From Monosiga brevicollis MX1 (lineage: Eukaryota > Opisthokonta > Choanoflagellata > Craspedida > Salpingoecidae), in the NCBI RefSeq assembly GCF_000002865.3, contig NW_001865048.1, positions 1,065,940 through 1,129,939 on the forward strand: 64,000 nucleotides of DNA, read 5' to 3'. Every line of letters starts with the position of its first letter. Positions within the stretch are counted from its first letter, which is position 1. The translations under genes were made by a program, and so were the position numbers. The notes beneath the pieces were generated by a model, which worked only from the letters and a program-made list of their open reading frames with translations, made no database searches and was not told the origin of the DNA. Shown here in pieces: positions 9,391 to 22,817 of the stretch.

Positions 9391-12300
9391 ATGTCGCTCA
9401 AGAGTGCCGTCAAAACGGTTTTAACCAACGTAAGAAGACGGAAAGAAGAAACCGTGTTTCAGTCTTGCTGCATCCAACCACGCCACCTCATCATGTGCCG
9501 CCACTGTCCCACCAGTCCTTGCGCAGCGTTGCCGATGGCGGGGACTGGAAAGTGCTGGTCGTGGACAAGCCAGCCCTGCGCATGATTTCCGAGTGCGCGC
9601 GAATGTCCGAGATTCTCGACCTTGGCGTCACTGTTGTGGAAGATGTCTCCAAGCAGCGCAAGGTCCTGCCTCAGTTCCACGGCGTCTACTTTATTGAGCC
9701 CACGGAAGAGGTGCGATAGACGACAATGTTTTCCCTGGAAAACGTGAGAGCTCTAGCCTTGCCGTCTCATCTCCGAAAATATCCCCCTCCGAAAAAACAA
9801 TGTTCGCTTGCACCCAACATGATAGAACCTGGACTATGTGATCCGTGACTTTGCTGATCGCACCCCAACCTACGAGGCTGCCCACCTGTTCTTCCTGTCT
9901 CGTACGATCCATGCCCCCCCCCCCCCCCCCAGCACATAGACCCTTACTTGTCAAGCTGAAAGGACCAAACTTAACCAGACGCTATGTCAACTCATTCTGC
10001 AGCCGTTCCTGACGCATTGATGGCCAAGCTGGCCAGCGCCAAGGCTGTCAAATATGTGAAGACTCTGAAGGAGATTAACACGCTCTTCATTCCCAAGGAA
10101 CATCGCGTCTTCACGCTCAACGAGCCCCACGGCCTCGTTCAATATTATGGATCTCGCTCCTCCTCCTACAACATCGATGTATGCACGGCTGCTTCTGTCC
10201 CCCAAGATCCTTGCACCCCTTGCATTGGTGATGTTGCATGACCTCTGTGGTGAAGGCGCTGGCCTGACATTCAAAGTCCCTGCTTTCTTGCCCCTTGGTG
10301 TCCTGCAGCATCTGGTTCGCCGTCTTTCGACCCTGTGCACCACGATGAATGTGGCTCCCATTGTGCGCTACAGCAGGTGAGAATGACGATGCCATCCTTC
10401 AACTCTCCGATAATCTTGCCCGACGCTCCGCTCATACCCTTGCCTGCGCATGCGCGATGCTTTCAGCACCTCCACGCCAGGCACGGAGCGCATGGCTATG
10501 CAGCTGCAAAAGGAGATTGATATGTCGGTCTCTCAAGGCTTGATCAATGCACGCGAGGTTGGCTTTGCTCCATCTGCAGAATGGTGTTGGTCAAGCACAA
10601 GTCCTGCCCGTGTGATGCAACAAAACTGACCTCGACAACACGCTTGGTACCGCCCCTGTTCTCCTGTGCAGGGCAAGCTGAAGTCACAATTTCTGATTCT
10701 GGACCGCGCCGTCGACCTCAAGTCCCCTCTGGTGCACGAGCTGACGTACCAGGCTGCCGCCTACGACCTGCTGAACATTGAGAATGACATTTACAGCTAC
10801 TCGACGGTCGACGGTACGAGGGGGCGCACTTTCTTCAACACTCTCATTGTTTGGCGCTGCCCGCCTTGCTTGTTGTCAATATATTTCACTAGCCGGGGCA
10901 GCTCACACAAACAACAACCGCCTCCACTCCACCCATTGACCCGCAGCTGGAGGCCGTGAGCAACAACGTCAGGTTGTCCTGGGCGAGGATGACGACATTT
11001 GGCTTCAGATGCGTCATCTGCACATCAGTGAAGTGTTTCGCAAGGTCAAGTCTAGCTTTGACGAGTTTTGCGTATCGGCCCGCCGACTGCAAGGCCTGCG
11101 CGACAGCCAGCAGGTTTGTATCCGCGCCTCCGACGTTCCCGCCGCTTGACGCGCGTCCTGGACGCGCGCCCTCGTTCAATACGCTGCCGTTCTTCTGCTC
11201 TTGTTCTCACCGTCTTGGTTCTTGGCCATGGCATGTGACTACTGCTGCCCCAGGGTGAAGGTGGTGCTGGTGCGCTGAAGCAAATGCTCAAAGACCTTCC
11301 CCAGCATCGTGAGCAGATGCAAAAGTATTCTTTGCATCTGGACATGTCCAACGCCATCAACATGGCCTTTTCCTCGACCATTGACAGCTGTACCAAGGCT
11401 GAGCAGGTAGGCTGCGTTTCGGTATATTTCAACTTCCCATCACCTGATTTGTCGCCTCTCCCAAGATGGGCCCACCCTTTCAACTTGACGTTTCCGGTGA
11501 GCTTCGACTCGTGCTCACAAGGGTACATGCAATCGTAGAACATTGTGACGGAGGAGGAGCAAGACGGCAACAAGGTCCGCGACTTTATTGGCGAGGTAGC
11601 CAGTGTAGTCGTTGACCGCCGTGTTTCGTAAGTGCCCTTGTCCTCCCCCTGAGCTACCCTGAGAATGCCGTTGGAATAACCCGCCTTTGGGTGTTGGCTG
11701 TGCAGGACTGAGGACAAGCTGCGCTGCCTGATGTTGTGCGTCTTGGCCAAGAACGGCACGTCCAGCCACGAACTGAATAATCTGCTCGACAATGCCAACA
11801 TTGCCACCCCCAGCCGGTGCGTCGCGACCGCTCTCCCTTCTTTGAATGCATGCTTGCCTCTCACGGTGTCCAACCTTGCTTGATGTGCATGTGTCCAGCT
11901 CGGCCATCTACAATCTGGAGATGCTCGGGGCGACCGTGGTTGCAGATCGCCGTGGCCGCAAGCCCAAGACCATGAAGCGCATTGAACGCGACATGCCCTA
12001 TGTCCTCTCACGCTGGACACCCATTGTCAAGGTGTGGCGATAACGAGGGTCAAGAGGGACATGCTCTTCGCCTTTTGTGTGTGGTTTTTGTTTTTTTTTT
12101 GTGTGTGTTTTTTTTGTTTTTGTTTTTTGTTTTTTATGTTTTTTTTCCGTCCCTTCTTCTCTGCCACTCACCCCCGCCAGCTCAACGTCGGCCGGTCGAC
12201 ATATTTGCCTTGCCCAACAGGATCTGATGGAATACATTGCCACCGGACAATTGGACCTCGAATCCTACCCCGCTGTTCGGTAGGTCTCGAGAAAATCCCG

Positions 12301-13233
12301 CCTTGCCATTAATCTGCATGCGTGGGCGACGATCGTGCGCCATGCTCGCTGATCCGCCGATCTGCACCCGTTGGTCCCTTGGATAGGGATGGACCCAGTG
12401 TAGTGCAACCCAAGCGCGCCAGCAAATCGGTTGAGGAAGACGATGATGGACCGGCGACCTCTGCGCGCAAGTGAGTTTTCCTGCCATCGCCGCCGCAAAT
12501 CACGGCAACGCGTGCCCTGATGCTGCGCAAATCCTTGACAGGCGCGGCAACTGGGCCAAGAACAAGGGCAACAACCGCTCGCTGCCCTCGACCCCGTCGG
12601 GTGTCGCTGTCTCTGGTATGTCATGGCGCTGGCAGCCAGCACTTTTTTTCTTGTTTGGGAGGGTCAAGCATTTGTGGTGTTGGTGCGTGTGTCTGTTCTT
12701 TGACATCTTGGTGATTCCATTAAATTTACGGTTTTGTTTGGGATACGCTTAGGCAATGGCGCCGCTGGTGCTGCGGAAAGCGCCAAGCCCAAGCTTTTTG
12801 TCTTTATCAATGGCACCGTGAGGTGAGTGACTCTGCACCATGGTGGCGGCTCGATGCAAGAGGGGCTCACATTGATCTATGCATTTGCCAGCTACAACGA
12901 GATTCGCTGCGCATATGAGGTCAGCCAGTCCTCGGGATATGAGGTGTACATTGGGGCCCACAACATTGCCACCCCAGCAGAGTTTGTTGAGCTCGTTAGT
13001 CTGCTGGACAAAGCCGACCAAGGTCTGTTCGAGCAAACTCCTTGCTGGCAGCATGTTGGACCTGGCTGTATTTAAAGGACCCTTTCCTTTGCTTTTTCAC
13101 GCTCATGAAATCGTGTGCCACTGTTTCTGTCGACCCCACAGATGTTCAGGTGCTGACACAGGGTCAGGGCGACGGTGGCTTGGTCATCACGACGGGCAGT
13201 GCGCAAGCAGGTCTCAACCTGGCCGAGGTGTAA
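9391..13233 (+). CDS. STXBP1: Munc18/STXBP-type Sec1-family SM protein
   Basis: Sec1/Munc18 protein that clasps syntaxin and drives SNARE assembly for plasma-membrane exocytosis. Exon 1 is 9391-9429 and exon 2 is 9516-9710. About a dozen more exons follow. Family landmarks in order: DWKVLVVDKPALRM; VTVVEDVSKQRKVLP; VYFIEPTEE; KYVKTLKEINTLFIP (10050); FLILDRAVDLKSPLVHEL and AAYDLLNIENDIY (10690-10800); LGEDDDIWLQMRHLHI (10980); LKQMLKDLPQ; LRCLMLCVLAKNG (11720); LSRWTPIVK (12006); and FVFINGTVS..YNEIRCAYEVS (12800-12920). The order and spacing match neuronal-type Munc18. Beyond the usual end, a last exon (13142-13233) adds about 30 Gly/Gln-rich residues. Several splice joins are approximate. 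The STXBP1 symbol denotes the closest group, not proven one-to-one orthology. Confidence 0.93.
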
Positions 13234-13734
13234 ATTCAGCCGTCCTCTGTATTTTTGTTGAGACTGCTGGTCTCTTTTGCTTTTTTTTCCTCGCCCTTGC
13301 CACCTTCATGACTGGCTCTCATTTGATGATGAGGTGAGCAGCTGGCAACTCGTTTTAATTTTGTCGTCTTTTATTGTACACACCCCAATTGTACTCCGTG
13401 TACTTGAACAACATCAAGTGCAGACTCTGGGAAAAGAAAAAGATGAGGAAGAAAAGAAACAAACAAGTTGAAGAAAAGAGTTGAGCCTGAGAAGATGGTA
13501 CACACAAAAACTGACGGTTTGAAATACCAACGCAGCGTCGGGCGCACACATGATAGGCTTCTCCGCACAGTGGGATGGCAAGAAGAACCGAAAAGGGTGT
13601 CGGTTCTGTGGATCCCATGCCATTTAGGAGGTAGGTGGATAAGCAAGGTGCCTTCTGGAACGAGGGCTCAGATGGCTTGGTAACTGTTGGGGCTTGGGAA
13701 AGCAGGCTTATCTGGAATATTCTCCTTGCGGCAA
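13234..13734. other. Intergenic, tail-to-tail
   Basis: 3' flank shared by the Munc18 gene (+) and the MRH-type receptor gene (-). AT- and A-rich stretches occur near 13430-13470. No coding or RNA features were seen. The true 3' end of the minus-strand gene may extend into it. Confidence 0.5.
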
Positions 13735-15168
13735 TGAGCCACCAAGCAGCGACACCTGAAGAAAGAAACAAAGAAAAATATGGGACATGCGCGTCACGCG
13801 CCAAGTCAAGCACGACCATGAGCAGGGAGAGGGTGAAGGCTTACCACCACCACGAAAGCCGGAAGCCATCCTTGATCAAGGGCGGGAAGGAACACCAGAA
13901 GGTCTTGTGAACAATGAGCTCGGTCCCGCGCTTGCCGTCTCGATACAACAGCCTGAGATGGTTGCACGGCCGTCAGGCAATGAGACGGGATCGCGAGGCA
14001 AAGGCTGACTGGACCAGTGAGCCCACGGCAGGCACATACACGGCACCAATGATAAAGTAACAAATCAAAGGGATGAAGAAGCAGAGGAGCAAGATGGTGC
14101 CGACATCATCTTGTTTCTGCCGAGTGGAAGTACCATTGCCATTGGCAGGCTGATCACCGCACAGGTAATCGGAATAGACGTTAAATTCGACGACACACTG
14201 CGAGGCCCCGACCAACATGGCGCAATCACGGCAACAAGCGTTTGAGCGTGTCAGGATGATCAAGCCAAGGCAGGAAGGGCTTACGAGCGGCCAAGCTCGA
14301 GGCAGCAAGACAGCAGCAACACAGGTGTGGCGTTTGCACGCACGTCAAGAGATGAGTCGGACACTGTTTGAACGTAGGTTTTTGAGGCTTTTGTATCGCA
14401 CTTGAAGTTGATTGTGGTTCGAGATCTGCGAGGCCAAGGTGAAGCGGTGCCCTCGCAGGCCGTGAGGTGACGTTTGAGTATCAAGGCTCAGGATTTGCTA
14501 TGCGGAACCATGTGGACTGACAAATGACCATCATCGGCATAGGTGCACTCGTCGCCCTGAAGGGTGGCGATGGCAACGGTATCGTTATTGCTGAGGGGTG
14601 TCTGGTAATTGGTCTCCTTGACCTGCAGCGTGTTGAGATAGCCATCTGTTCAGGGAGCCACGTGCAGTGAGCCTGGGGTGGTGTGGCGAGGTGCAGACTG
14701 GGAAGCGATGCTTTGTGCACGCACGGAACGCGGACGTACAGTTGACTTTGCCGGTGGCACCGTTGAAGACCTCGCAGACCATGGTCCCCGCGGTACAGTA
14801 GCCGCTGTCAAAGTGGAGCTGTTCGCAAATGTTGAGACGGTACGTGTATGCCTTTGAGAAAAATGAGGCGCTCGAGTAATCCGAGGTGGTTGGCGCCGCG
14901 AGTTTGTTCAGATCAAATTCAGAGAGCTAGCAGTAATGGAGGCCATGCAAGGGGCATCGTAAGTGCTGTGGCGCACCGATACGCGTGCGCCGCGCAAGAA
15001 TGGGGACAACCCTAGCCAACACGGCCGGTCGAACCGAGCTAGGTGGCAAACCTGGCAGCGAGGGGAGGCGTGCAGCTGCTCCTCCGAGGATCGATAGGTG
15101 GCACTGTCGGCCGCCGCGGTCACCAGCAAGGCCGCGATCAAAGCGCGCACAAGTGAAGATGTCCCCAT
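13735..15168 (-). CDS. MRH/Atg27-like single-pass lectin-type receptor
   Basis: Putative type I membrane protein of the Golgi/endosome. The start at 15168 (MGTSSLVRALIAALLVTAAA) gives a clear signal peptide. Luminal exons carry LNKLAAPTTSDY, YRLNICEQLHFDSGYC, MVCEVFNGATGKVNC and GDECTYADDGH. This Cys-spaced pattern and the N-x-C/x-C-E layout resemble mannose-6-phosphate-receptor homology domains of Atg27 and the cation-dependent M6P receptor. A transmembrane segment (TILLLCFFIPLICYFIIGAVY, near 14060) is followed by a cytoplasmic part with HKTFWCSFPPLIKDGF (near 13880), which resembles the conserved FW..LP.L.KDG box of those proteins. The C-terminal end after that box is not resolved; a further exon near 13735 may add a few residues. 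Ligand specificity cannot be read from sequence. Confidence 0.58.
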
Positions 15169-15339
15169 ACTGATTGTGCAAGCACCACCAGCTGCACGAC
15201 ACGACACTGTTGGTACAATCTATCCAGCTTCACCAAACACTGGACAAGCGGCTACGCTCTCAACAACAAGCAGCACGCGGCAAATTACACACTGCTGTTT
15301 CTCCATCTACAGCCCCAGCACCAGAGAGCACCAGAGAGG

Positions 15340-15560
15340 ACCAGCAGCCCCAGCGAGAACCAGCGCAACAGAGAGCACCAGAGAGAACAAGCAGCACCCG
15401 TTCACCAGAGTATCAGCGCACCAAAGAGCACCAGAGGGCACCAGCAGGCACCAGCGGGCACCAGAGTATCAGCGCACTCGAGGGCACCAGAGAGAGCTCA
15501 GAGGGCACCAGCGGGCACCAGAGTATCAGCGCACTCGAGGGCACCAGAGAGAGCTCAGAG
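15340..15560. repeat. GC-rich tandem repeat upstream of the MRH receptor
   Basis: Irregular CACCAGAGAGCACCAG-type repeats. They culminate in two nearly identical direct copies of a roughly 50-60 base unit, each containing CACCAGAGTATCAGCGCACT, at about 15455-15505 and 15507-15560. Open frames in two phases cross the array and encode only repeat-derived Arg/Glu/Ser-rich peptide, so no gene is called. The array lies in the divergent gap between 15168 (-) and 16029 (+). Confidence 0.8.
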
Positions 15561-16028
15561 CACGATCGAAATGGACATGTGGGCTGCTGGTGTTTCTGGA
15601 GGCAGAGACCGTGTGGGGTTGGCGGATGTTATGAAGAGGTACGTGGTGATGCAGATATAATTTCAGAGAAGAGAGCGTCTCGTGATGGTCCAAGGCTGAC
15701 AAGTCCCTTTAATTTACTATACGTTCAGAGATGTGTTCTACAGAGGATGAAGATGTAGAGCACATTGCATAGCATAACGTGAGCCCAAGAGACACACATG
15801 ATGGAGAGAGGGTAGCAGCTGCTGTGCCGATCGCACCATGCTGCAACAACTCCCGATTCCGCTTCACAAAATATGTTTACTAACATTAACAAAACAAATA
15901 ATAGTAAAATATATTCCACATTTACTCTTATTGTCATACAAATGGTTTGCTTGTAAGAACCAACTTTGTCATTTGTCACACTTTTAAAACGAAAAGCGAT
16001 AGAGAGAGAGAGAGAGCGCGCGCGCGCG

Positions 16029-16669
16029 ATGGAGCTGCATCGAGTGGCATCGGCAGGCGGGACGCCGCTGCCAAAGGGTGAGTGGGCCGGTGTGCTGGCG
16101 GCGGTATGAGTGGTGTTGGGCGCTGGTTGTGTTGGATGCAAAAAAGGTTTTGCCTGGGGTGTGTTTTGTGCTGACCGGTCGCTCCTGCTCTCCACTGATG
16201 TGTGATGATGGTCAAACTTGATGACGCAGCGGCTGCCCACCGGCGATTGGAGATGACAACGTCTGGCGTCACTGCCTCGGACCAAGCTGAAAAGGCTCCC
16301 ACGCTCAAGGTCTGCTCCTGCTTGTGATCCTTGTTATTCCATGCCGACCTGCTCGTAATGACGTTTCCCTTTTGCCTGTATTCGCCCCGCACCCCGTCAA
16401 CTTCTTCTTCTTCTTCTAGCATCAACTCAACTCGGAAGAGAATAACCTCAAGCGGAGCCTTCTCCATCGCCATGTCGACATTGGTACGGCTGCGCCAGGG
16501 ACTGAGTTTCCCAATCACCTTCTCTGTCTTCTCTCCGTTCCAGTCCAACTGTACATGTGCACACGCTTTCCCCGTTGTGCTGGGACTGCATGCCTCACTA
16601 CCGCCTGGCAACCGGACCGACCGAATGACAGATTTTCCGGATGATTTCGATGAAGACGATGTCACCTGA
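16029..16669 (+). CDS. Small unknown protein with acidic C-terminus
   Basis: Tentative short multi-exon gene. Exon 1 (16029-16077) follows a GAGAGAGCGCGCGCG run and encodes MELHRVASAGGTPLPK. The next exon (from 16231, RRLEMTTSGVTASDQ..PTLK) joins in phase and has a GT donor at 16311. A third exon (16419 to about 16484) encodes HQLNSEENNLKRSLLHRHVDI, which is likely helical. The last piece ends DFPDDFDEDDVT and stops at 16669. Frame continuity across three consensus introns is the only evidence. I recognise no family. The final join is uncertain, and alternative frames exist for the last exon. An antisense open frame over the region is less convincing because it runs across the splice signals. 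Confidence 0.38.
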
Positions 16670-17355
16670 CCTTGTGGCATGCTTGCCCGTGCTCCATGGC
16701 TGCCATGCGCTGCGATTCGGACGGGCATTGTACATAGTAGACTCCTTTTCCAAAGCGTGACAACAGCTCGAGGCGTCGCCTCTTGTCAACCTTTTCTTTG
16801 CCCTTTTCGCCCATCAATTGTCAATTGCTTCGTGATCAAGTGGACTTTGAAAGTGACACCAAGCGTGCTGGTTGGGATGGTCGCCCCCACGACAGCCACG
16901 CAACCATGCCACTCGACTTTTTGTAGCAAAGCTGATGCTCTCGTGCGTGACGCCACCGGGCATCACGGCAATTTCAATTAGTCGGGACGGACAAACGCGC
17001 ACCCAAACAAAACATTGGCAGCAAACACCTCAGACATGGGCAAGGACGCGCACGAACGAGCACGCGCACAACAAGATGATTGCCTAACATGGAAAATCAA
17101 GGCAACACCGACACACAACACTTGATTGGTGCATGGAATCACAAGGACGCACAGACCCTCTGCCACGGACATGCAGCAATTAATCCAACAAACACAACAG
17201 AAGAGGGGTAGAAGAACACAACAAGGGGAACAAAAAAAAAAAAAAGCAAGGCAAACCGCTAAATGTACACTGTACTCAACGCAAGGGGGGAAAGAGATTT
17301 AAAAGGCAGCATCAGCACTGGGAACGTGAGCGCGACCCCGTGCTACAGGCTGGGC
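16670..17355. other. Intergenic, tail-to-tail
   Basis: 3' flanks of the small gene (+) and the EGF-repeat receptor (-). A run of A lies at about 17230-17245. No coding, RNA or repeat feature was identified. Confidence 0.55.
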
Positions 17356-20300
17356 TCACTGAGGGTGCTCAACATCCAGATAGCCGTCACCCTCTTCCTC
17401 GCCCTGTGCCGCTGGAGGAGCGGCTGCGGGTGCTGCACTCTCATCAAAATCGAGGTAACCATCCGTTTCCTCCGCTGCGCCGCCCAACTGTGGCACTGCC
17501 GGGGCAGCAGCTGTGGCCCCTTCGTCAAAATCGAGGTAGCCGTCCGTTTCCTCGGCAGATGCCCCCGGTTGAGGTATCACTGACGAGGTGGGCGCGGCTC
17601 CCTCATCGAAATCGAGGTACCCGTCTGTCTCATCTGCGGCCGTGACCGGCGCTGGCGGTGCAGAAGTTGGCGGTGGAAGGCCGCTTCCAGGATGCTCCAC
17701 ATCCAGATAGCCGTCATCTTGGGAGGCATCCGCGAGCGCCGCCGCGGAGGACGCAGGCATGCCACTACCGGGTTGCTCAACGTCCAGGTAGCCATCATCC
17801 TGGGTGGCCTGGGGTTGACCCATGGCAGCAGCGCCCGCGCCCGCCGCACCACCCGCACCCGATTCCTGCACATCAAGATATCCATCGTCATGATTGACAG
17901 CGGCCGCGACCGGCATGCCTGCCGCCTGAGCTTGACCAGGTGTGGTCACGTCCAGGTAGCCGTCGACGTGACCAGGTGCCGGCTGGGGCCGCATGCCTGC
18001 TTGGGAATATTGGTCCTTGCCCGCACCGCCGACGGCAGAAGCGGCTCTGTAAGCTCCATTGCTGGTTACTGTGCGTGGTGCGCCATCGGCAGGTGCTGGG
18101 CCCTCTTCGTATCCTGGATTGAAGATGGGGGCGTGCGCCGACATGTTTTCGTACATGCCAGCACCCTACCAGCAAGTCACGGCACAACCATCAAAATGAA
18201 AAAGCCGGTGAATGCCCCTCAAGCCAGGCACCTGCGTTGCCATTACAATGCCGGGAAGCAAACCTCGGAGGGGCGAGGGCCACGGTAGCCGGGATTGGAA
18301 AAGCTTGTGATGGACTTTGGCATGCGATGCTGAGATGACACCGTGATTGCAGGTCGATGCGGGCAGCAGGTAGCAGCCTGATGAGAGGCGAAATGATGGA
18401 AGGGCATCATGGGTGCAAGCAATGAGGCCAATCCAGACTCATGACCGACCTCACGGGTACTAGAGGGCTTGCCCTTGCAACGGCAACAGATAATCCAAAT
18501 GGCAGCAATGGCCAAGAGAACGGCAGCAGCAAGTACGCCTACATGTCCCAATTTCGTGAGTGAGCGCAATGAAAACCAAAGAAGCACATTGGGCGGCAAT
18601 TGGGATGGGCATCACCAGCAAGCGCACCATAGAGAACGGGACCCTGAAACACGTCGTCGTCGTTGCTTGTCGACTGATCGGTGCCAGCAGAGTTAATCTC
18701 GCACTGCTCCCCCTCGTACCCCTCGGGGCACCTGGCGGTACCAAGTTGAAACGAAATCAGGCCAACTCAAGAGAGAAAACACCTGATCTTCATTGACAAC
18801 ACAGAAAGGCAAGGTGGAGGGCCACCTACTCGCATCGATGCCGGTCTCTGCTGACGGCCGAGCACACTTGATAGCTAGCACAAGGGCTTGCGTTACAGGG
18901 GTTTTCGACTGCCAGGTGGCGCAAAATTCAACAAAATGGCTCGGTAAGCTGTCAATCGGCCATACGGCGAGCAAATTGCACGCCGTTCCTCTCCCTCTCC
19001 GACCCCCTTGTCCCTCTCCCTCTTCTCCTCCCTCGCACGTATTCCTCGGAACATACATTCGCAGTTGTCACCAATGTACTCATCGGTACAGGAGCAAGTG
19101 TAGTTGCTGGCTTCGGCGTTGCCTGCCGCGCAGGTGCCACCGTGCTGGCAAGGCGAGGGATTGCACACTAACAAGCAATGAACGAGCGAGATTTGAGTTT
19201 GTTGAGCGGGGCGCACGGAGCTTTGAGCCAGGCAGCAGGGAGCAAACAGGCACGTGTTCCTATTGCACAAGAAAGCCTCACCTTCCATGATGTCGCAATT
19301 GGGCCCAGTGTAGCCGTCTGGGCAGGAAACATCTGCAAATTGGACAAGAAACGTGAGCCAAAGCAAAGTGGCGTGGGGTGAACTAAACCACGGTGAGCAA
19401 AACCTTTAACCCACTTGCACACAGGTCTCCACGCCATCCATCGGTACAATCGCAGTCGTAGCTGGTGTTGGAAGTGACGACGCAGGTTGCTCCGTTCTGA
19501 CACAGATTGTCGGCGCCTGGAGATGCGAACCAGAGCACGCGCACACAAAAAAATCAATGCAGAAGCTTGGACGAGACAACTGGCGTGGCGCACTTGGAGC
19601 AATGGAATTTCTGGAAAGAAAGAAAAAAAAAAACATTGAGACTTACAAGAATCAATGAACTGGCACACCGTGCCACCAAGGCCTTGCGGACACCTGACAG
19701 CACCCGAGCGAAATGGATCAGTAAGTCGCTCATTGAGAAAGCTCCAAACTGCAAACAGCTAACGGCTTAGGATCGCTGCCGAGCATTGATGACCAAGAAC
19801 ATGGCAACGTGCTTACAAGCAGGTGAACGAATCAAAGCCCGCCTGTGTGGTGCAGGTACCGCCATTGGTACAAGGGTCAGGGTCACATTCATCGAGATCT
19901 GTCTCACAGATAGGACCGCCCCAACCAGAAGGACTAGAAAAAAAAACCCCCCAAATGTGAGGTAAGCACTGGGGCAGGGCAGGGACATGGCACGAGCATT
20001 CCATCCGTGATGATGGCTCGAGGCCTCATGAGCAGCCACCGTTGAACGAAAAAGGCAGGGAGGCAATCCTCACCAGGCACACTCAAAATTATCGTTGGGC
20101 AAGGAGAAACAGGTTCCGCCGTTGCGACAGGACACGCCCTCGTCGCAGTTGACCTGGATCGTACAGTGCTGTCCGTCCAAGTAGTCCGGGCAGTTGCACG
20201 TGTAGCCGTTAATGCCTACGTTGACGGGCCGGAATGCGTGTATTTAGCACACTGTGACCCCTTCCAGATGCAAGCGGGGCGCGGCAAGCAGGAGGCCAGA

Positions 20301-21609
20301 AATTTGAAAGATAACCAACGCACCGGGAACGCAAGTGCTGTTGCCAGCACAGCGCGGCTCGCCCGTCTCGTTGTAATACTTTTCGCAAAAGTCGGTGAAA
20401 TCCTGACAATCAGGGCCGCTGTAGGCGGGATGACAGGTACAGTTGTACCCATCCCCTGAACAGAGTAACGGTAGCCGATTCAGTGAGACTCATTGGCATA
20501 AGAGATGATCATGTGCGAGCAGGAAGCGTGCTCGATGAACTCGTCTACAAGCATGGAAAAATTACCGAGGTTGGTGCAGGTTCCACCAACACCGCAGGGG
20601 TTGCCGTCGCAGTGGAGATCGACGTTGCAATATGGGCCGACCCAACCATTACTAAAAGATGAAGGGTGATACCGGAAAGAAGCGGCTGAGTGCAAGTTGC
20701 GTGGCCGATATTGAAAATCGGGGCAAGAGCCGAACCAAAAGTGCACAGGACGAGGTCAAGGGGCGAAGGTGGAAGATAAAAAAAAAACCACATACTCGCA
20801 CGGGCTGCAAAAATATGGGGAATCCTCGGGCGCCTTGGGAACGTTGTTGATGCAAGTGCCATGGTCGTTGCAAGGTGCCTCTTTGGTCGTACACTCGTTG
20901 ACATCCACGCAGGTGTTGGCGGATACACGCGTGGCCGCACCAAAGCTTTCGCACTCGGCCACAGTCACGCAAGTGCCGTTGGAGGTGTACGGGATGAAGC
21001 CATCGCTGCATTGAAGGCAGGTGGCGGCGGCATTGGTATGGCAACGATCGCAGTTGGCGGGGCAGGGCGTGAGACAGCTGGGGCCACCGTAGCCCTGCTC
21101 GCATTCACAGCGAGCGGGGTTGGACGCGCTGATAGTCATGCTGTACTCGCTGCAGTTGTCGACGCAGATGGGGAACGGGGTCAAATACCATCCATTGGTG
21201 CAGCTGGTGCAGGTGCCAGCGGTGCATTCACAGTTGTGCGGGCAACTAGTCAGGACAAGGAATCGGCAACAAACCGGCGGTGAGCGACGCATTAGGAACC
21301 AGCGCCTTGTTTGCAGTCAACGCACGCCCACGGTGCGCGCGCAATGCTGAGCTGAGTGAGATGACAACAAACAACAACAACAGCAACAACAACTCCTCGA
21401 CAAACGGTTGATCGAGTCGGCAGCCATCCCATGACACGAAATCCCACTCAGACATGACCAGATCTCCGACTGAACTGAACGTACTCATCGCGACCATCCA
21501 AGCCATAGAGGTCACCACCGAGCTGCCGCTGATGCAGCACGGTAACGGTTGCGGCAAGCGCAGCCAGCAGCAGGCCCACGGCAAGCAGTCGCATGGACCG
21601 GCCCGGCAT
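17356..21609 (-). CDS. EGF-repeat transmembrane receptor-like protein with GYLD[VF] tyrosine tail
   Basis: Predicted single-pass surface protein. The start chosen at 21609 ([18 protein letters not shown]) gives a signal sequence; an in-frame ATG upstream at 21729 and a downstream one at 21594 are alternatives. Ectodomain exons encode a Cys-rich furin/laminin-like part ([20 protein letters not shown], 21240-21010). Serial EGF-like modules follow, including calcium-binding types ([34 protein letters not shown]) and plain types ([27 protein letters not shown]), ending [12 protein letters not shown] near 18720. A TM helix ([20 protein letters not shown]) lies at about 18550-18480. The cytoplasmic tail holds two NPGY motifs, MYENM, and eight GYLDV/GYLDF motifs in the last exon (18165-17356). 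Known SH2/PTB ligands include NPxY and YxxM, so I infer an adaptor-docking tail phosphorylated by tyrosine kinases. No kinase domain is present. Confidence 0.85.
17359..17970 (-). repeat. Protein repeat: eight DGYLD[V/F] tyrosine motifs
   Basis: Within the last exon of the EGF-repeat gene, eight copies of DGYLD followed by V (five copies) or F (three copies) are spaced about 20-30 residues apart by Ala/Pro/Gly-rich linkers. Acidic residues almost always flank the tyrosine ([18 protein letters not shown]). The three YLDF copies are adjacent and sit between YLDV copies, so a local duplication made that subset. Confidence 0.93.
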
Positions 21610-22817
21610 GACAGCATTGGAGCTCAAGCCCTCATCGTGAGCGAGGTGGTGCGTCCGTGTTGATCCGCTTCTTTGAACACCTGCATTTGACAGCGGTATG
21701 TACCGCGCTGCCTGACGCTGCCCCTTCATCGCCGCGACACGGGAAGAAGCACAAAACGGAAAAAAAAAAAAAAGAACGACAGAGGCAGAGCGCCAGAGGT
21801 GGCAACTTGACTGGCTCGGTGTGGAAGAGAGTTGGCTATCTTGGGTACCTTGGCGAGAGAGGATTGCTTGGTGTGAATGCGCTGGCTTGCAAACACCAAG
21901 CCAAACGCAGAGGTACAGTTGATATTAGGATGACATTCAGAGATCAAGTAAGGAGGAAGTGAGTTCCTGAGAGGCATGTTCAAAAGCCTTCAAGGCCAGC
22001 GCTCCGGAGTCGCACCCCGCCCACATCTATAGTGTGGTCACAGTGACACTTTAAAACTGTATATGTGTGACCAGTATCACACATGAGTGGGGTCTTGCTT
22101 GAGGCGCTACCATCTGTAGTGATATTCTCACTGTGTTCGTGGAAAGGCGCGCTGCCCGGTGGCTGGCGGGATCTGCTGCTGGGCGATGAGGGAAGGTGGT
22201 CTGGTCAACTTTTAGAAACGGGCGCGCTATGCGATCGAGGAAGCTTGAAAGGCGCAGAAACAGAAAGAGCAACCAGCGTGATCTTTGGCTTTTACTTTCA
22301 ATTTTTCCAATAGAAGGGGAGCATGCATAAAAACACTCAAGACGCTACAGCAGGCAGCTCGCCGGAGTCTGTAGCTTGCTAAACAACAACAGCGACACAA
22401 AACGCCCAATTTCAGAGAAGTCAAATTGGCAAACAAAACTCTAATAGAGCTCCGGTCCACGTTGCCAGCACTGCGGGTCAACCGTGCCGGACACTCTCTT
22501 TGCAGCCGTAACAGCGCACATTCCTGAACACGCAAACTCCCACACGAAAAGCAACCGGGCCACTTGACTCAGCGCTGCGACCAACGATCCGGTATAAAGT
22601 TGGTTGCTGCCCACTCGTATGTTGCTATCATGTGGAACAATAAGAAAAGGGGGAAACGTCTGAAAAACAAAACTAAACCAAAGAAGCCAAAACTAGGTAA
22701 GGCGGGGCAACGGCCTGCGCAGCAGGCGGTCGCGCGAATGAACAAGTTGGATGATGATGCTGACGAAGATGATGACACGAACACAAGCACGCGCGAGCGC
22801 GACCACCACGGCCCTCG
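21610..22817. other. Intergenic region upstream of the EGF-repeat gene
   Basis: About 1.2 kb between the EGF-repeat gene start and the forkhead gene stop. It holds an A-run (21761-21773) and two dyad-symmetric elements at 22037-22084 (listed separately). A purine-rich stretch near 22640-22700 has an open frame of Lys-rich peptide, which I regard as non-coding. Confidence 0.5.
22037..22084. promoter_or_regulatory. Two adjacent dyad elements sharing GTGA/TCAC cores
   Basis: GTCAC-A-GTGAC (22037-22047) is a perfect 11-base dyad. ATGTGTGA (22063-22070) and TCACACAT (22077-22084) are perfect 8-base inverted arms around a 6-base spacer. Position, about 450 bases upstream of the EGF-repeat ATG, suggests a binding site for a dimeric factor. 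The factor is unknown. Confidence 0.35.

Follow-up and report, generated by a model that had tools for sequence, protein, structure and literature searches.

A kinase-less EGF-repeat receptor of Monosiga brevicollis with a putative phosphotyrosine docking tail of eight DGYLD[VF] motifs

The multi-site docking proteins include p130Cas, with YxxP motifs, IRS and ErbB3, with YxxM motifs, and Gab. The choanoflagellate Monosiga brevicollis has about as many tyrosine kinases and SH2 domains as mammals, or more (PMC3507883), and tandem tyrosine repeats, named RM2, are present in the tails of its RTKB2 and of three other RTKB kinases. RM2 repeats are disordered and acidic, are phosphorylated by RTKB2 and MbSrc1, and are bound by an SH2 domain (PMC3584944). 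We found little literature on what the M. brevicollis SH2 domains read in the cell. HMTK1 is a PTB-kinase of M. brevicollis whose PTB domain binds NFTNPVpYATG, and peptides carrying this ligand are phosphorylated efficiently (PMC3082566). Among animal receptors, those of the engulfment type represented by CED-1 use NPXY for PTB and YXXL for SH2 domains, and have relatives with EGF-like domains (PMC9388098). In the receptor kinases, Y785 of TrkA recruits PLC-gamma1 (PMC12871558), and in a crystal structure the N-SH2 domain of PLC-gamma sits on pY766LDL of FGFR1; high-affinity binding between these two uses a secondary contact through the kinase lobe (PMC2741584).

Gene model and composition of the tail

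The stretch analysed here, called the window, comprises 64,000 nucleotides of M. brevicollis MX1 (contig NW_001865048.1, here C47), and its host is, as the initial annotation had supposed, a unicellular relative of animals. On the minus strand we could model a gene that comprises 15 exons and encodes 876 residues (Table 1), with GT...AG borders at 14 of 14 introns and continuous phase across all exons. The predicted product carries, in this order, an N-terminal hydrophobic stretch, a Cys-rich region, EGF-like domains, one transmembrane (TM) helix (about residues 553-574; hydropathy 2.75) and a tail of 302 residues, the extracellular domain, helix and tail sharing one reading frame in the model. 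A Pfam scan of the 876 residues returned EGF-type families only (EGF, E 2e-26 over five stretches, and hEGF), with the tyrosine kinase domain absent, and a search with the ectodomain returned the gene's own match plus EGF-type stretches elsewhere in the genome. By joining the EGF exons, the helix and the repeat exon, the model agrees with the earlier assignment of this tail to an EGF-repeat membrane protein.

Table 1. Features of the receptor gene, in positions of the window
Feature	Positions	Strand	Basis
Whole gene model, 15 exons, 876 aa	17356..21729	-	GT-AG introns, phase; Pfam EGF, hEGF
Exon 1: start codon (an alternative Met follows downstream) and hydrophobic segment, either signal peptide or anchor	21485..21729	-	Gene model
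Exons 2-12 including introns: Cys-rich, EGF-like ectodomain	18628..21245	-	Gene model, Pfam
Exon 13: TM helix (about 18483-18538; first residues in exon 12), basic juxtamembrane stretch	18450..18538	-	Hydropathy 2.75
Exon 14: first NPGY (SFSNPGY) at 18285-18296	18264..18329	-	Gene model, motif count
Exon 15: YENM, second NPGY, GYLD[VF] repeat, stop codon	17356..18165	-	Open frame, gene model
YENM	18142..18153	-	Motif count, coordinates rechecked
Second NPGY (PIFNPGY)	18109..18120	-	Motif count, coordinates rechecked
DGYLDV copy 1	17947..17964	-	Motif count, coordinates rechecked
DGYLDV copy 2	17869..17886	-	Motif count, coordinates rechecked
DGYLDV copy 3	17779..17796	-	Motif count, coordinates rechecked
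DGYLDV copy 4	17698..17715	-	Motif count, coordinates rechecked
DGYLDF copy 5	17608..17625	-	Motif count, coordinates rechecked
DGYLDF copy 6	17527..17544	-	Motif count, coordinates rechecked
DGYLDF copy 7	17446..17463	-	Motif count, coordinates rechecked
DGYLDV copy 8	17371..17388	-	Motif count, coordinates rechecked

Exons of the Sec1/Munc18 family adjoin the receptor gene (window 10630-13072, plus strand; of three frames, one passed the family cut-off), and Tandem Repeats Finder reported a degenerate tandem repeat of CACCAGAG-type units in the intergenic stretch 15317-15560.

The tail has a pI of 4.05 and 82% disorder-type residues, a composition from which it is predicted to be disordered. 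Its 13 tyrosines follow the order NPGY, YENM, NPGY, NGAY, DQY and then eight DGYLD[VF] copies, arranged as V, V, V, V, F, F, F, V (five V and three F) at spacings of 26, 30, 27, 30, 27, 27 and 25 residues. Beyond tail residue 100 all eight tyrosines belong to exact copies, and a copy of DGYLD[VF] one residue off, looked for throughout the tail, was not found. The initial annotation had counted these eight motifs, the YENM and two NPGY within 17356..18165; the tally holds, but one of the two NPGY sits in exon 14, outside those coordinates.

The number of GYLD[VF] motifs expected in a tail of the same composition is 0.0003, and among 100,000 shuffles of the tail one motif appeared in 42 and two in none, so a chance origin of the repeat was rejected. 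A fresh tandem duplication of DNA was rejected as well: Tandem Repeats Finder, run over 12000-22600, listed no array at the GYLD repeat, and the codons are widely diverged. Across the eight DGYLD codon sets, Asp is encoded by GAC or GAT, Tyr by TAC or TAT, Gly by four codons and Leu by three. Comparing the sets in pairs gives 79 codon differences, of which every one is synonymous and zero change the protein, although this zero is partly built in because the copies were selected by exact match. With a minimum of 8 changes and a synonymous share of 0.21, drift of this kind has a probability of about 4e-6 if random, a rough estimate that ignores transition bias and the tree and applies to copies chosen by exact match. 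The synonymous divergence and the lack of a listed DNA array thus argue that it is the protein motif that has been kept, not a DNA repeat. The tail looks like a real and strongly kept docking tail of the phosphotyrosine type on a kinase-less receptor, for which a plausible mechanism can be proposed.

Tails of similar order elsewhere in the genome

Pattern searches covered the 39.5-Mb M. brevicollis assembly. A DNA pattern for DGYLD followed by V, F, L or I matched 23 times genome-wide, against 0 matches for the reversed control: eight in the window gene, six in one gene on contig C18, a single match in the C4 tail and another in the C49 tail, four in repeats of another kind and three elsewhere. 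The last seven lie outside such tails, and this lack of tail specificity counts against a docking function. GYLD-x followed by D, E, H or Q gave 26 matches (12 in the control) and [DE]GYLE-x gave 9 (2 in the control). When 19 further matches of these two patterns were read in context, a tally that leaves out one match inside the window at C47:1111690, four proved to lie in receptor tails (C29, C44, C51 and C17) and the other 15 showed no recognisable receptor tail. One more tail, on C46, was found through an EYFDP pattern and is matched by the GYLE pattern as well. The window gene and these eight further genes have nine tails with a total of 25 GYL[DE]-hydrophobic sites, and uniqueness of the motif to the window tail was rejected, since the nine share the code.

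NPxY is present in seven of the nine tails, at 15 sites, compared with a mean of 0.2 and a maximum of 5 sites, in at most four tails, over 2000 shuffles of the same tails. None of the searches used NPxY, but it was in view when the C29, C44 and C51 tails were picked out by eye, and the association is thus partly unblinded; among the other six tails four have it (window, C4, C49 and C46), and the C4, C49 and C46 genes are paralogs. The tails without NPxY are those of C18 and C17, the latter counted from its last exon only. A common order runs through the seven: a hydrophobic helix, a basic stretch, at least two NPxY and then the GYLD sites. The juxtamembrane contexts are SFSNPGY in the window, HFENPGY in C4, HFTNPGY in C49 and FENPxY in C29, C44 and C51. 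In the last three, only a short distance separates FENPxY from the preceding basic juxtamembrane residues. The C17 helix is encoded in a frame further upstream.

Upstream of the tails we identified EGF (window), cadherin and TIG (C4), weak TIG (C46) and sushi and HYR domains (C17), and in C29 a TNFR-type domain in an upstream frame; the scanned pieces of C49, C44 and C51 gave no domain above the cut-off. Exon joins were modelled for the window and C18 genes only. No kinase family was detected in the scanned pieces of the nine genes, which covered the region from helix to stop whole in eight of them, C17 being the exception. The three paralogs are large receptors (C4:86000-94973, C49:1259500-1267900 and C46:1054500-1062500) with repeats of YFDP in 4, 4 and 6 copies, respectively, which we take to resemble the YxxP sites of p130Cas. 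Their tails also carry two NPxY, LYADG, and GYL[DE][VL] near the C terminus.

The C18 protein (C18:135518-138578) has four hydrophobic segments and a tail with eight GYL[DE]-hydrophobic sites, and belongs to no family above the cut-off (claudin-like E 0.017, DUF898 E 0.012). Its tail aligns with the window tail (E 3e-8). In both genes the repeat lies in a last, phase-0 exon whose start precedes an NGAY motif, which suggests that a phase-0 tail exon was shuffled onto another membrane protein. The motif is looser in the tails of the other genes, a point against docking: the ten [GA]YL sites of C18 have D at +2 in seven and E in three, and GYLN, GYLK, GYLA and GYLET occur in other tails.

The window and C18 genes together provide 14 copies in which V and F can be compared. 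DE follows F in four of four copies and V in none of ten (p 0.001), and P occupies +6 in eight of the ten V copies and in none of the four F copies (p 0.015), p-values that are too good because the three F copies of the window are adjacent and may share descent. An F copy with the same DE flank is also present in the C18 gene. It is a fair inference that there are two extended motifs, perhaps with two readers, and the distinction between V- and F-type copies drawn in the initial annotation thus finds some support in the DE flank.

Proposed mechanism, candidate kinases and readers

The main function of the tail is probably phosphotyrosine docking. The EGF-rich outside of the receptor would meet a ligand or a prey surface, and the flexible acidic tail would act as a phosphotyrosine platform in two parts, which may amplify signalling as the initial annotation proposed. 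In the first, the juxtamembrane NPGY motifs would recruit PTB-domain proteins, presumably PTB-tyrosine kinases (HMTKs), and the docked kinases or their partners would phosphorylate the downstream DGYLD[VF] tyrosines. In the second, up to eight pYLD[V/F] sites would bind SH2 proteins with pockets for hydrophobic residues at +1 and +3. Among such proteins PLC-gamma is the foremost candidate, and with it as reader the tail would become a multi-copy PLC-gamma (calcium/lipid) hub. Docking is favoured by the nine tails with a shared code, by the excess of NPxY over the shuffles, by the eight motifs kept through 79 synonymous codon differences, and by the tail repeats of RM2, which in the same species are phosphorylated and bind the SH2 domain of MbSrc1 (PMC3584944).

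The NPGY contexts SFSNPGY (window) and HFTNPGY (C49) compare with the HMTK1 ligand NFTNPVpYATG. The published 5' cloning primer of HMTK1 (PMC3082566) has an exact match in the genome at C27:362313, next to exons for PTB and kinase domains, and matches once more at C42. About 1.5 kb from the C27 site, and in the opposite sense, lie 24 matching bases of the 3' primer. The simplest scheme would be a PTB-kinase docked at NPGY that phosphorylates the tyrosines downstream. The writer may instead work in trans, as a receptor kinase or as MbSrc1.

Genome-wide, profile searches gave 114 SH2, 13 PTB and 169 kinase-family matches, the latter including non-tyrosine kinases. One gene, at C54:1866500-1876400, encodes PLC-gamma: an EF-hand and the full domain set lie in separate open frames, with PLC-X, tandem SH2, SH3, a PH half, PLC-Y and C2 in this order within 4 kb, and the best PDB match of its tandem SH2 is PLC-gamma1 (E 7e-60). 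The residue after the conserved His of SH2 domains sets binding specificity, and in the two PLC-gamma SH2 domains it is V and C, not aromatic. The C-terminal end of TrkA in PDB chains reads PPVYLDVLG. Five of the eight window copies are YLDV and fit the pY-L-D-[L/V/I] form of PLC-gamma sites, and three are YLDF, for which the sources checked give no precedent, a point against docking. Papers printing YLDV together with TrkA and PLC were absent among the matches listed, and the literature search found none on pYLD with PLC and SH2.

Based on these motifs, we tentatively propose PLC-gamma as a principal reader of the pYLD[V/F] sites. Against it, one study found that PLC-gamma bound short YLDL peptides poorly: for pYLDLSAP of FGFR3 the KD was >50 μM with the N-SH2 and 7.5 μM with the C-SH2 domain of PLC-gamma2, compared with 2.1 μM for the C-SH2 domain of PI3K, and the study did not score the Y766 peptide of FGFR1 as binding PLC-gamma (PMC3514216). 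Also against it, a kinase-less tail lacks the secondary kinase contact used by FGFR1 (PMC2741584), and the 114 SH2 matches leave many other possible readers. A row of eight sites could offset weak binding at each.

The same FGFR3 peptide data would favour a reading in which pYLD[VF] is bound by another SH2 domain with a hydrophobic pocket (PI3K p85-like, SHP-like or choanoflagellate-specific), PLC-gamma being a minor reader; V and F copies may then have different readers, and their flanks do differ, in copies that are not fully independent. We took a census of the position after the conserved His in a subset of the SH2 matches (94 HMM hits, 89 unique, 77 covering both columns). In the 74 domains with the binding arginine this residue was small or hydrophobic in 19, aromatic in 25 and other in 30, of which 22 are His, possibly in part through alignment shifts. 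So mixed a census picks out no single reader, although the 19 domains add to the case for another SH2 protein. YLDV and YLDL are, however, identical to two mapped PLC-gamma sites in the sources cited above, and the genome encodes a complete PLC-gamma, and we regard the replacement of PLC-gamma by another principal reader as possible but doubtful.

The reach of the code is equally doubtful. At least seven kinase-less tails with differing ectodomains may carry it, NPxY near the membrane and then GYLD-hydrophobic sites, and may recruit PLC-gamma in bulk, with receptor and kinase as separate molecules; the code would have been amplified to eight sites in the window gene and in the four-segment C18 protein. 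If this is true, the code by which Trk and FGFR recruit PLC-gamma through pYLD-hydrophobic sites would be older than animals.

A tail for endocytic or lysosomal sorting would bind clathrin adaptors (AP-2, AP-3 and Dab2-like PTB proteins) through unphosphorylated NPGY and GYxxPhi, for the uptake of ligand or bacterial prey. All eight motifs match Yxx[V/F] and thus fit YxxPhi signals, which weakens the case for docking, and position -5 is hydrophobic in each of the two NPGY. The G before Y also recalls lysosomal sorting signals. A YxxPhi reader, however, needs neither L at +1 nor D at +2, and both are kept in eight of eight copies despite codon drift, which Yxx plus a bulky hydrophobic residue leaves unexplained. 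Eight signals would also exceed the needs of sorting, and the acidic run before Y would suit kinases. Sorting as the main function is thus unlikely.

An array of autophagy LIR motifs, in which acidic-flanked YxxV would bind Atg8/LC3, fits the loose LIR pattern in the five V copies, but in three of the eight copies +3 is F, a residue outside the usual LIR form, and we consider it very improbable. Just as improbable is that the EGF and repeat exons belong to different genes, or that the tail is a product of low-complexity drift: the gene model is built entirely from genomic sequence, but its continuous phase and GT-AG introns, the purely synonymous codon drift of the copies, and the recurrence in six other genes of NPxY-then-GYLD behind a hydrophobic helix speak against both.

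Comparison with known systems

Among the matches listed we found no published description of the window tail. An eightfold motif that matches a mapped animal PLC-gamma site and is common to eight other genes provides concrete peptides to test, and makes it a testable question whether the docking codes of receptors were inherited by animals or reinvented.

The nearest precedent for the window tail is RM2, through which tandem tyrosine repeats in M. brevicollis tails are already known; both consist of acidic tyrosine units in tandem and belong to receptor tails of one species, and the repetition of GYLD[VF] is unusual. RM2 units are of about 80 aa, have sites of the YEAI/YGAV type and lie behind a kinase domain (PMC3584944), whereas the window tail has a period of 25-30 aa and no kinase domain. 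EEVY and VYxA[IV], a signature taken from the peptides printed in the same source, are absent from the window and C18 tails. Membership of RM2 was rejected on the absent signature, the period and the lack of an RTKB kinase domain.

With CED-1, Draper, MEGF10 and Jedi the window receptor shares an EGF-type ectodomain, a single TM helix and the lack of a kinase domain. Their tails carry NPXY and YXXL; the window tail has NPGY twice, and YLDV/F in place of YXXL. It differs from them in its eight GYLD[VF] at spacings of 25-30 and in having no EMI domain and no ITAM. An EMI domain at the N terminus defines CED-1/Draper/MEGF10. We found none at E 0.01 in the model and none at E 1 in the 150 N-terminal residues of the ectodomain, and CED-1 membership is therefore not claimed; an ITAM identity was rejected, as the tail has no such spacing. 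The likeness to p130Cas, IRS, ErbB3 and Gab is that a single docking motif recurs many times along a disordered stretch, in the window tail a predicted one; the difference is that these are soluble or kinase-family receptor proteins with other motifs.

The initial annotation knew of no animal receptor with this repeat. The motif itself has animal counterparts, YLDV in TrkA and YLDL in FGFR1; it is the repetition that is unusual. Y, +1 and +2 are identical to TrkA and FGFR1, and the V copies match TrkA at +3 too. The residues before Y differ (V in TrkA, E in FGFR1, DG in the window tail), and three window copies are YLDF. The animal receptor kinases have one such mapped site, against eight in the kinase-less receptor of M. 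brevicollis.
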